Below are positions 3,437 through 7,094 of a stretch of DNA of 32,714 nucleotides, in pieces. The position numbers and the translations under genes were made by a program. The notes under the pieces are model-generated. The model did no database searches, was not told the origin of the DNA, and worked only from the letters and a program-made list of their open reading frames with translations. Origin of the DNA: Succinivibrio dextrinosolvens DSM 3072 (GTDB lineage: Bacteria > Pseudomonadota > Gammaproteobacteria > Enterobacterales > Succinivibrionaceae); the NCBI RefSeq assembly GCF_900167015.1, contig NZ_FUXX01000027.1:1-32714 (forward strand), written 5' to 3'. Position 1 is the first letter of the stretch. Every line of letters begins with the position of its first letter.

Positions 3437-3898
3437 ATGGCTGACAATGAAAAGACTGCAGTGGCAATCGACTCCATGGGCCCTTTAGCTATCGCCGGTG
3501 TAGAACCATACCAAGAACAACCAGGCGAAGAATACATGAACGAAAAGCAGAAAGAACATTTCAGAAAGATTCTTACTGCATGGAGAAACCAGCTTCGTTC
3601 AGAAGTTGATCGTACTGTTGACCACATGAAGAGTGAGGCAGCAAATTTCCCTGATCCTCTGGACAGAGCAACTCAGGAAGAAGAATTTGCCTTAGAGTTA
3701 CGTGCACGTGACAGAGAAAGAAAGCTTATCAAAAAGATTGATAAGACTTTAACCAAACTGGATAACGATGATTACGGCTATTGTGATCACTGTGGTTCAG
3801 AGATTGGAATCAAGAGACTAGAAGCTCGTCCAACTGCTGATTTATGTGTTGACTGCAAAGCTTTAGCTGAAATCAAAGAAAAGCAGTTAGAAGGTTAA
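3437..3898 (+). CDS. dksA: RNA polymerase-binding transcription factor DksA
   Basis: DksA enters the secondary channel of RNA polymerase and, with ppGpp, retunes rRNA and biosynthetic promoters. The 153 residues match the family length (151 in E. coli). The coiled coil carries the functional tip DPLDRA with D73, D76 and A78, the equivalents of E. coli D71, D74 and A76. The zinc finger is the full four-Cys form (C116, C119, C137, C140), so this is not a Cys-less paralogue. GGAAG lies just upstream of the ATG. The gene is followed after 61 bases by gluQ, with a terminator between them. The first 30 residues are poorly conserved, as usual. Confidence 0.97.
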
Positions 3899-3959: not shown

Positions 3960-4829
3960 ATGGCTGAATATATAGGAAGATTTGCTCCATCCCCAAGCGG
4001 AAGACTTCATTTTGGTTCGCTTGTAGCCGCTCTTGGCTCTTATGCCGTTGCAAAACACAAAAATGGAAAAATACTCTTACGAATTGAGGATCTGGATTTT
4101 TTCAGATGCAAAAAAGAGTACACCTCAATCATTCTAAAAGAGCTTGACGAATTCGGATTTGTATTTGATGGAGAGCCATACATTCAGTCAGAACATACCG
4201 ATGTCTATTACAGGGTTGCCAAAAAGCTTGTAGAGGAAGACAAGGCTTTTTACTGCAACTGCACAAGAAGTCATTTAAAAACAGGTGTATGTCACTGTCG
4301 TGAAAAAGGGTTAAAAGAAAACGCTCAGGATAATCTTGCCCTACGCTTCATCATTCCATCTACCCATCAGAATTCTTTTGAAGATGAAATTTACGGAGTA
4401 ATAAGCTCACCTGTAACAGTAGACGCACTGACTCTTATCAGACGTGATAAGGTAATTTCCTACAATCTTGCCTGCGTTGTTGATGATATTCATCAGGGGG
4501 TAACTCAGGTTGTAAGAGGTTCCGACCTTATCGATATCACAACTACTCAAATGTGTCTTTACAATGCTTTAGATACAGAATGTATTTCCTATCTTCATCT
4601 GCCGCTGGCCATGGCAGACGAAACATATAAGCTATCAAAACAGAACCGTTCTCCAGCAGTTCTAGATCAGGGACCACCATCTCAGATGCTTATTAAAGCA
4701 CTGGCTTTTCTTAATCAGGATATCTCTGGATTGAATCCTCAGATGACACCTAAGGTTATTCTGAATAAGGCTCTTGATAATTTTGAAATTCAGAAAATAC
4801 CTGTAGGAAAAAAGGTTATCGAAGCTTAG
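3960..4829 (+). CDS. gluQ: Glutamyl-Q tRNA(Asp) synthetase
   Basis: A truncated paralogue of the glutamyl-tRNA synthetase catalytic core, GluQ attaches glutamate to queuosine in the anticodon of tRNA-Asp. The 289 residues include the class I signature PSPSGRLHFGSL (the HIGH-equivalent), a Cys cluster CNCTRSHLKTGVCHC consistent with the zinc site, and KLSKQN in place of KMSKS. There is no anticodon-binding domain, which separates it from GltX. The ATG at 3960 is the only available start: an in-frame TAG lies at 3939-3941 inside the terminator loop and no other start codon intervenes. No ribosome-binding site precedes it, since the preceding bases are the terminator U-tract. The next gene is pcnB, as in E. 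coli. Confidence 0.93.
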   Translation: MAEYIGRFAPSPSGRLHFGSLVAALGSYAVAKHKNGKILLRIEDLDFFRCKKEYTSIILKELDEFGFVFDGEPYIQSEHTDVYYRVAKKLVEEDKAFYCNCTRSHLKTGVCHCREKGLKENAQDNLALRFIIPSTHQNSFEDEIYGVISSPVTVDALTLIRRDKVISYNLACVVDDIHQGVTQVVRGSDLIDITTTQMCLYNALDTECISYLHLPLAMADETYKLSKQNRSPAVLDQGPPSQMLIKALAFLNQDISGLNPQMTPKVILNKALDNFEIQKIPVGKKVIEA

Positions 4830-5027: not shown

Positions 5028-5036
5028 TGATATAAT
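5028..5036 (+). promoter_or_regulatory. Extended -10 promoter for pcnB-folK-pth-ychF
   Basis: TGATATAAT is a perfect extended -10 element (TGn-TATAAT) without a good -35 at the right distance, followed by the GC-rich discriminator GCGCG. Transcription would begin near 5043, giving a leader of about 25 nucleotides before the pcnB ribosome-binding site. It lies 200 bases beyond gluQ, so the downstream operon need not depend on the dksA promoter. Confidence 0.6.
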
Positions 5037-5067
5037 GCGCGTGTTTGTTTGATTTAGGAGAAGAAAA

Positions 5068-6603
5068 ATTATAACACCTTTAGATTCGCTCGATACAGCA
5101 AGCCTTAAGAGCAGTAAAGCACTTGTAAAAAAACACGGCTCATCAAAACTAGTAGTGAGCACAGATGATCTTTGCATAAATCTCAATGAGATATCCAGTT
5201 ATGCGATGCGTGTTGTTGCTACCCTGCAGAAACATCATTATGAGGCTTATCTTGTAGGTGGATGCATCAGAGATCTTCTTTTAGGAAAGAAGCCAAAGGA
5301 TTTTGATGTATCAACTAATGCAACTCCAGAACAAATCAGACAGATCTTTATTTCAAATTCAAGAATCATCGGCAGAAGATTCAAAATCGTTCACGTCCTG
5401 CAGGGCAAAGAAATCATTGAAGTCACAACCTTCAGAAGTAATCAGTCAGCACCTGCAAAACAGCGTTCAGGAAGAACCAGAGTCAAGGCAGAGTCTGGAA
5501 TGCTGATTCGTGACAATGTTTATGGAAAGAACATTATTGAAGATTCTCAGAGACGTGATTTCACTATCAACGCGCTGTATCTCGATCCTGTAAAGAAGGT
5601 TATATACGACTTCAACGGAGGTCTGTACGACATGCAGCAGGGAGTCATCGATATTATCGGTGATCCTGAGACACGTTACAGCGAAGATCCTGTACGTATG
5701 ATTCGCGCACTAAGATTCTGTGCAAAGCTTGGCTTTAAGATTTCAAGAAGAACTCTTTCTCCAATCAAAAAGATGGCTTCAAATCTGAGCGCAGTTTCCA
5801 ATGCCCGTATGTTTGAGGAAGTCAACAAGCTGTTTTTGACCGGCCATGGACTTCAGACATTCAGAACCTTACGCAAATACGATATCTTTAAGCTACTGTT
5901 TCCTTCAGCAGCAGAACTTTTAGATAATCAGAATTACATCAACTTTGTTGAATATGCTCTGAGCAGTTCAGACAAGAGATATATGGAAGACAAGAGGAAC
6001 ATGCCTCACTTCCTGTATGCTGTAATTTTATGGGCAGTTTTCCAGAAGAGAATGTTCATCTGCAATCAGACCTATAACAGTGCTGTTGTTCTTGTTCCTC
6101 AGAACAAGCTAATCAGCGGTCTTTTAAATGATATTATCGCTGAGCAGAATAAAATTACTGATATGCCTATGGCCGTTGCTGACAGTATCCGCTCACTGTG
6201 GAGAATGCAGCTAACCCTTGACGATATTGAGAATAACAATATCGATGAGATTGCAGCGCGCAATATTTTCAGAGCTTCATATGATTTCCTTGAGCTAAGA
6301 GGTAAGTTTGAACCTTACTTAAAGACGGCTATCGATTTCTGGAATCCTTACTACATCAAGAGCAAGGAACTTGCTGATAAGAGAAAGGCAAGAAAAGAAG
6401 AGAGTTTTGGAAGAAAAGCTCGTAAAAAAGAGAAGCTTGCTGCTAAGAAAAAAGCCTATGAGGATAAACTGGCAGCTAAGAAGAGCCGTAAAAAAGCCAA
6501 TACAGAGTCTTTCGATGATGAGGCAAACCTTTCTGCAAAGAGAAAGAAACAGCTTGAAAAGGCTAGAGCATGGCGAGCAGCTATGCACCTGGATGTAAAA
6601 TGA
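5068..6603 (+). CDS. pcnB: Poly(A) polymerase I, predicted AUU start
   Basis: PAP I adds 3' poly(A) tails that speed RNA decay. The nucleotidyltransferase core shows GGCIRDLLLGKKPKDFDV and RRDFTINALYLD. IIGRRFKIVHV fits the signature separating bacterial poly(A) polymerases from CCA-adding enzymes. The C-terminus (about 85 residues) is a very basic Lys/Arg/Ala tail, likely RNA-binding. The first conventional start codon is GTG at 5155, which has no ribosome-binding site. AGGAG at 5056-5060 sits 7 bases before an in-frame ATT at 5068; the 29 codons between contain no ATG, GTG or TTG and no stop. E. coli pcnB is a documented AUU-initiated gene, so I place the start at 5068, giving 511 residues. 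The gene overlaps folK by four bases. Confidence 0.9.
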   Translation: MITPLDSLDTASLKSSKALVKKHGSSKLVVSTDDLCINLNEISSYAMRVVATLQKHHYEAYLVGGCIRDLLLGKKPKDFDVSTNATPEQIRQIFISNSRIIGRRFKIVHVLQGKEIIEVTTFRSNQSAPAKQRSGRTRVKAESGMLIRDNVYGKNIIEDSQRRDFTINALYLDPVKKVIYDFNGGLYDMQQGVIDIIGDPETRYSEDPVRMIRALRFCAKLGFKISRRTLSPIKKMASNLSAVSNARMFEEVNKLFLTGHGLQTFRTLRKYDIFKLLFPSAAELLDNQNYINFVEYALSSSDKRYMEDKRNMPHFLYAVILWAVFQKRMFICNQTYNSAVVLVPQNKLISGLLNDIIAEQNKITDMPMAVADSIRSLWRMQLTLDDIENNNIDEIAARNIFRASYDFLELRGKFEPYLKTAIDFWNPYYIKSKELADKRKARKEESFGRKARKKEKLAAKKKAYEDKLAAKKSRKKANTESFDDEANLSAKRKKQLEKARAWRAAMHLDVK

Positions 6604-7094
6604 CCCTAGCTGTTTTATCCTTAGGTTCGAATTTAGGTGATAGTCAAAAGATTTTAAAAGACGCTGTTTCTGACATCAAAAACATAGAAGGAATCAGCGA
6701 CTTTAAGTTGTCCCCTTTTTATAAGACAAAACCCGTCGGCTATATGGATCAGGATGATTTTGTAAATCTTGCCTGTTCATTTGAAACAACTTTAGAGCCA
6801 TTAGATCTTCTCCATAACATGCAGGCTTTAGAGCAGAAATATAAAAGGGTCAGATTATTTAAAAACGGTCCAAGAACACTGGATATTGATCTGATTGTCT
6901 ACGGGGATCTGGTTCTTAATACACAGGAGCTTACTGTTCCTCATCCAAGAATGCATGAAAGAGCATTCGTTCTTGCGCCTCTTAAGGATATTGAACCGAA
7001 TTTAACTGTAAGTACCTTTAACACAACTGTTCAGGAACTTTACGAACAGCTTGATGATAAAGAAAAAAATGATGTGGAAATTATAAATGGCTAA
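6600..7094 (+). CDS. folK: 2-amino-4-hydroxy-6-hydroxymethyldihydropteridine pyrophosphokinase (HPPK)
   Basis: HPPK transfers pyrophosphate from ATP to 6-hydroxymethyl-dihydropterin in folate synthesis. The 164 residues start MTLAVLSLGSNLGD, the usual family N-terminus, and carry the HPPK signature GPRTLDIDLIVYG with the metal-binding Asp pair, then LTVPHPRMHERAFVLAPL. I choose the ATG at 6600, which overlaps the pcnB stop as ATGA, over an in-frame ATG at 6570 that would add ten residues not matching the family. Order after pcnB is as in E. coli. The end overlaps pth by 8 bases, indicating translational coupling. Confidence 0.95.
   Translation: MTLAVLSLGSNLGDSQKILKDAVSDIKNIEGISDFKLSPFYKTKPVGYMDQDDFVNLACSFETTLEPLDLLHNMQALEQKYKRVRLFKNGPRTLDIDLIVYGDLVLNTQELTVPHPRMHERAFVLAPLKDIEPNLTVSTFNTTVQELYEQLDDKEKNDVEIING

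Follow-up and report, generated by a model that had tools for sequence, protein, structure and literature searches.

A predicted AUU start codon for pcnB in Succinivibrio dextrinosolvens DSM 3072 and its recurrence among related bacteria

Results

The pcnB locus and its start site

The window, i.e., the whole stretch of DNA that was analysed (32,714 nucleotides, contig NZ_FUXX01000027.1), carries the genes dksA, gluQ, pcnB and folK (Table 1). PcnB was identified with the model TIGR01942 (395.7 bits for a cut-off of 305.65); its score with the narrower model PRK11623 (343.8) is under the cut-off of 702. Over the 482 residues counted from GTG 5155, it shares 93% identity with PcnB of S. dextrinosolvens ACV-10 and 98% with that of a yak-rumen Succinivibrio sp. 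assembly.

Table 1. Features of the pcnB locus (positions in the window)
Feature	Position	Strand	Remarks
dksA	3437..3898	+	First gene of dksA-gluQ-pcnB-folK, order as in E. coli
gluQ, glutamyl-Q tRNA(Asp) synthetase	3960..4829	+	Between dksA and pcnB
−10-like TATAAT, preceded by TG	5031..5036	+	Consensus scan; weak
In-frame TGA stop	5050..5052	+	Upstream limit of the pcnB open frame
Shine-Dalgarno (SD) sequence AGGAG	5056..5060	+	Duplex with anti-SD, −7.3 kcal/mol
Predicted AUU start codon of pcnB	5068..5070	+	SD, open frame, family comparison
Predicted 29-codon N-terminal leader of PcnB	5068..5154	+	pN/pS; missing if GTG 5155 is the start
pcnB, poly(A) polymerase I	5068..6603	+	511 aa counted from AUU; TIGR01942 match
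First canonical in-frame codon, GTG	5155..5157	+	Without SD; judged not to be the main start
folK	6600..7094	+	ATG overlapping the pcnB stop

The initial annotation had placed the start of pcnB at ATT 5068, and the features on which it relied are present: AGGAG precedes ATT with a spacer of 7 nt, and the frame is open from there into pcnB, with 29 codons devoid of ATG, GTG and TTG before GTG 5155. Only TTT AGG AGA AGA AAA separates the in-frame TGA from ATT. It was also correct that GTG 5155 has no ribosome-binding site: no SD precedes it by exact match, and the duplex energy is −1.7 kcal/mol vs. −7.3 kcal/mol for ATT 5068. The codon following ATT, i.e., ATA 5071 (spacing 10), was considered as a start and rejected, since it is not fixed among the close genomes (AGC in L004, ATC in L005 and L006).

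The first alternative is translation from GTG 5155, the leader then being an untranslated part of the mRNA. In its favour, GTG commonly serves as a start codon, it is kept in L003-L006, and the TIGR01942 match begins at residue 29 counted from AUU, one residue ahead of GTG (residue 30). Moreover, when the same SD rule is applied to the 30 open reading frames (ORFs) of the window, the first canonical codon lacks an SD in 18 of them, pcnB included; the missing SD at GTG 5155 is thus a supporting argument for AUU and not a decisive one. An upstream AUN codon supported by an SD is found in 4 of the 30 ORFs, and only in pcnB is such a codon combined with a canonical codon without SD.

The leader itself argues against this alternative. 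Its 87 nt are free of insertions and deletions in L001 and L003-L006, and no frame-breaking change is found in these close relatives. Over the five close genomes pN/pS is 0.23 in the leader vs. 0.05 in the following 100 codons. These values indicate that the leader is translated, yet less constrained than the enzyme core, and the 29-codon extension is conserved together with ATT, the point that the initial annotation had proposed to check.

No regulatory hairpin was seen over the start, the predicted fold of 5041-5140 being weaker than most shuffled sequences (z +1.5). The consensus scan for promoters gave one TATAAT-type match for 2.5 expected by chance, which is suggestive only; this TATAAT is present in L003-L006 too. 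If it serves as −10, the mRNA would start about 25 nt upstream of ATT.

Survey of the Succinivibrionaceae

Among 56 genomes of the family, 55 gave a match to pcnB, and one locus (L054) is cut by a contig end, leaving 54 scorable loci. It must be noticed that near-copy genomes are present, so that all family and order counts are non-independent. By manual reading, the start column contains ATT in 41 loci, ATA in 4, ATC in none and NTG or an unclear codon in 9. ATT was read in 10 of the 14 genera; g8 has ATA, and g6, g9 and g12 have NTG or an unclear codon, which indicates that the weak start can be lost. A blind rule was also used: between the stop and the point 34 codons ahead of the VGG motif, it takes whichever of seven codons follows the best SD at a spacing of 4-9. 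It returned ATT in 37 loci, ATA in 4, TTG in 5, CTG in 5 and no start in 3. The named records of Succinivibrionaceae and Aeromonadales (L057-L070), mostly the same assemblies as the family set, have ATT in 14 cases out of 14.

Two arrangements bear directly on a start at GTG. Four loci (L012, L020, L021 and L040) contain no ATG, GTG or TTG at all between the stop and the VGG motif, and in 4 more of the 45 genes with AUN in the start column NTG codons occur upstream of that column only. The automated count of loci without NTG down to −34 is higher (11 of 54); the window and L003 are among them, with a GTG at −33. In addition, where NTG codons occur further on, the first of them is never preceded by an SD (0 of 37). 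With AUU 5068 led by an SD and GTG 5155 lacking one, initiation at GTG is very improbable.

The second alternative is that the conserved isoleucine is an ordinary residue, the protein starting further upstream or being produced by another route (sequence error, frameshift). Lys-Ile is indeed conserved as a peptide. A TTG lies eight codons upstream in L004-L006, and in five loci an ATG closely precedes the AUN column: it is six codons upstream in L013, scored as ATA and devoid of SD, and 2-5 codons upstream in L019, L027, L046 and L047, where it overlaps or adjoins the SD. A more distant upstream ATG is found in L028; its duplex is stronger, at spacing 2. Against an upstream start, the stop lies five codons upstream of the column in the window and L003, and one codon upstream (TAA AAA ATT) in L010, L030 and L031, the last two being near copies; it is two codons upstream of ATA in L017. 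The upstream TTG of L004-L006 has no SD. Sequence error is countered by the same arrangement in other assemblies, including G030, a genome in a single contig, and the ACV-10 isolate of S. dextrinosolvens.

Codon usage separates the start column from ordinary isoleucines. Downstream in the 45 AUN genes (partial gene for some), Ile is encoded by ATC (660), ATT (501) and ATA (150), whereas the column contains ATT 41 times, ATA 4 times and never ATC (binomial, 1.7e-13 for ATT, kinship ignored); 24 of the 41 genes starting with ATT favour ATC for Ile downstream. An SD of at least 4 bases at spacing 4-9 precedes 44 of the 45 column codons (all but L013) vs. 46 of the 489 remaining Ile codons of these genes (Fisher, 7e-38, kinship ignored, the column being chosen by position and partly guided by the SD); when at least 5 bases are required, 25 of 45 and 29 of 489 codons qualify. 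The triplet before the start is AAA in 38 of 45 genes, Lys codons further down being AAG (849) and AAA (600). An ordinary isoleucine at this position is hardly credible. On the basis of the SD, the position of TGA and the recurrence in relatives, it is thus almost certain that pcnB of this rumen-type Succinivibrio begins, as in E. coli, at the rare codon AUU.

Two observations concern the number of PcnB-like sequences in the family. (i) A single open frame of 919-981 aa contains several distinct PcnB-like stretches in G050:C93 and G051:C6, possibly a tandem fusion in g12. (ii) The genome G022 has six PcnB-like matches, four of them at 27-32% identity (E 1e-21 to 1e-26).

The order and beyond

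A search of 118 genomes of the order gave 113 with a match, 8 of these in the Succinivibrionaceae. The order sample comprises 41 loci, namely that of E. coli K-12 and 40 loci representing 24 other families, each sampled once or twice. It does not include the remaining members of these families, f183, whose odd matches lay in very long frames, or f188, which gave no match. The blind rule returned ATT in 24 loci, ATC in 3, TTG in 2, ATG in 1 and no start in 11, among which L098 is an artefact, the rule being anchored on a wrong motif. For comparison, 6 of 166 ATT codons within the genes of the order sample have an SD. By manual reading, 16 of the 24 other families have a clear SD-led ATT in at least one locus. 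The E. coli site reads GAGGTG-TACT-ATT-TTT, and GAGGTG-N4-ATT is found again in further families of the order; in the Alteromonadaceae, the named record L071 shows ATC after AGGAG. The suggestion of the initial annotation that distant relatives share this AUU is thus upheld, both by reading within the family (10 of 14 genera) and by rule among the loci of the other families of the order (24 of 41).

Some sites of the order sample depart from this arrangement. L096 and L097 have a GTG one codon upstream of ATT TTT, which looks like the addition of a stronger start beside the old AUU. In L075, L076 and L113 the distance from the SD-led AUU to the VGG motif is 106-142 codons, which would give PcnB a long additional N-terminal region.

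In other orders (40 loci, each from a different family, chosen at the head of the match list), the rule returned ATT in 7 loci, ATC in 3, NTG in 7, CTG in 1 and no start in 22. These picks are too mixed, and ancestry of AUU beyond the order is not claimed.

The PcnB tree contains 130 rows and 136 columns, the loci L054 (cut contig), L056 (odd match) and L086, L102, L139 and L145 (no anchor motif) being dropped. With 74 of its 125 inner branches left open it is poorly resolved, and therefore only the number of changes was used. Labels were set by hand, those of the 41 order loci being ATT clear (22), ATT probable (5), ATC (3) and NTG or unclear (11). For the 92 rows that carry a label, parsimony requires 9 changes between AUN and NUG, subject to the poor resolution of the tree and to the hand-set labels. 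The simplest reading is that the common ancestor already had an AUN start, which was then lost several times within the order, the tree giving no direction. Since AUU recurs in most sampled relatives, a weak start seems to have been retained for a very long time.

Start codons of infC

The gene infC was found in 55 of the 56 family genomes. In the S. dextrinosolvens genome (L074, G000:C28) it has an AUA start behind AGGAG. All 31 family loci that were read have an AUN start: ATA in 18 (S. dextrinosolvens included), ATT in 10 and ATC in 3. In L167 and L168 an additional ATG lies two codons before AUN.

Discussion

IF3 discriminates against start codons other than NUG. In the scheme proposed here, the AGGAG of a short leader without stable structure would set the translation of pcnB at AUU 5068. 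Initiation there would use the initiator tRNA, so that PcnB would begin with Met. It would be inefficient, since pairings of codon and anticodon other than NUG are rejected by IF3, and the outcome would be a low and IF3-responsive supply of poly(A) polymerase I (PAP I). Taken as a whole this reading is very probable. The sequences show the arrangement of the site, its conservation and the AUN start of infC, and the low efficiency, the sensitivity to IF3 and the selection for low PAP I are inferred for Succinivibrio from E. coli and from general knowledge of initiation.

A third alternative accepts AUU as the true start and regards it as an inconsequential relic, not as a selected regulatory device. 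AUU is replaced by NTG in some genera, and the infC codon itself varies between AUA, AUU and AUC. However, AUG is one base change away, yet ATG occurs at −61 or −62 in none of the 54 family loci. The 9 changes counted above, with the reservations given for tree and labels, point in the same direction. In a published reconstruction (PMC5622118), AUU was gained once from 61,358 AUG starts and once from 5,080 GUG starts; gains so rare indicate that AUU is not a freely exchanged codon. The relic is thus rather unlikely, and the data are consistent with AUU being retained for regulation through IF3. With AUU at pcnB and AUN at infC, the parts of an IF3-sensitive circuit appear to be present. It is proposed, tentatively, that a weak AUU (rarely AUA or AUC) is ancestral and selected at pcnB throughout the order, and that pcnB and the AUN-started infC may form a two-gene set that follows IF3 and ties polyadenylation to the state of initiation.

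Two consequences can be drawn. (i) According to PMC5601948, annotation programs often weigh ATG, GTG and TTG alone; PcnB proteins of the order may thus be about 30 residues short or annotated at wrong starts, the annotated start having been compared here for E. coli K-12. (ii) As a start that costs efficiency is found again in most of the loci sampled across the order, selection for low PAP I becomes directly testable, and likewise a link between initiation and RNA decay through IF3 outside E. coli.

Comparison with known systems

The E. coli precedent invoked by the initial annotation is confirmed by the RefSeq record and by passages of PMC9764084 and PMC1780047. No statement on order-wide conservation of AUU at pcnB was found in the literature searched, mostly non-subscription and with Binns and Masters (2002) outside its scope; its breadth is possibly under-reported.

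The closest system is pcnB of E. coli (Binns and Masters, 2002): the genes are orthologues, the order dksA-gluQ-pcnB-folK is the same, and both have an SD followed by AUU. They differ by (i) the site, AGGAG plus 7 nt in Succinivibrio and GAGGTG-N4 in E. coli; (ii) the leader peptides, which are dissimilar (ITPLDSLD... and FTRVANFCRKV..., respectively); (iii) the status of the start, which is predicted from the sequence in Succinivibrio. As reported in PMC9764084, citing Binns and Masters (2002), AUU is paired in E. coli with a poor ribosome-binding site; the SD is good in Succinivibrio, and expression of its pcnB need not be very low.

In E. coli infC, which encodes IF3, AUU is used for translational control, as stated in PMC1780047. 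An SD-led AUN is common to this gene and to Succinivibrio pcnB, and infC of S. dextrinosolvens has AUA; pcnB is a different gene, and autoregulation by IF3 is a feature of E. coli. In S. aureus, PMC13009471 describes conserved non-canonical AUN starts with a strong SD in infC (AUA), ccpN (AUA) and cvfC1 (AUU). This is another phylum with other genes save infC, and its starts were measured by retapamulin footprints and reporters. AUU at pcnB being already known from E. coli, Succinivibrio adds another case.
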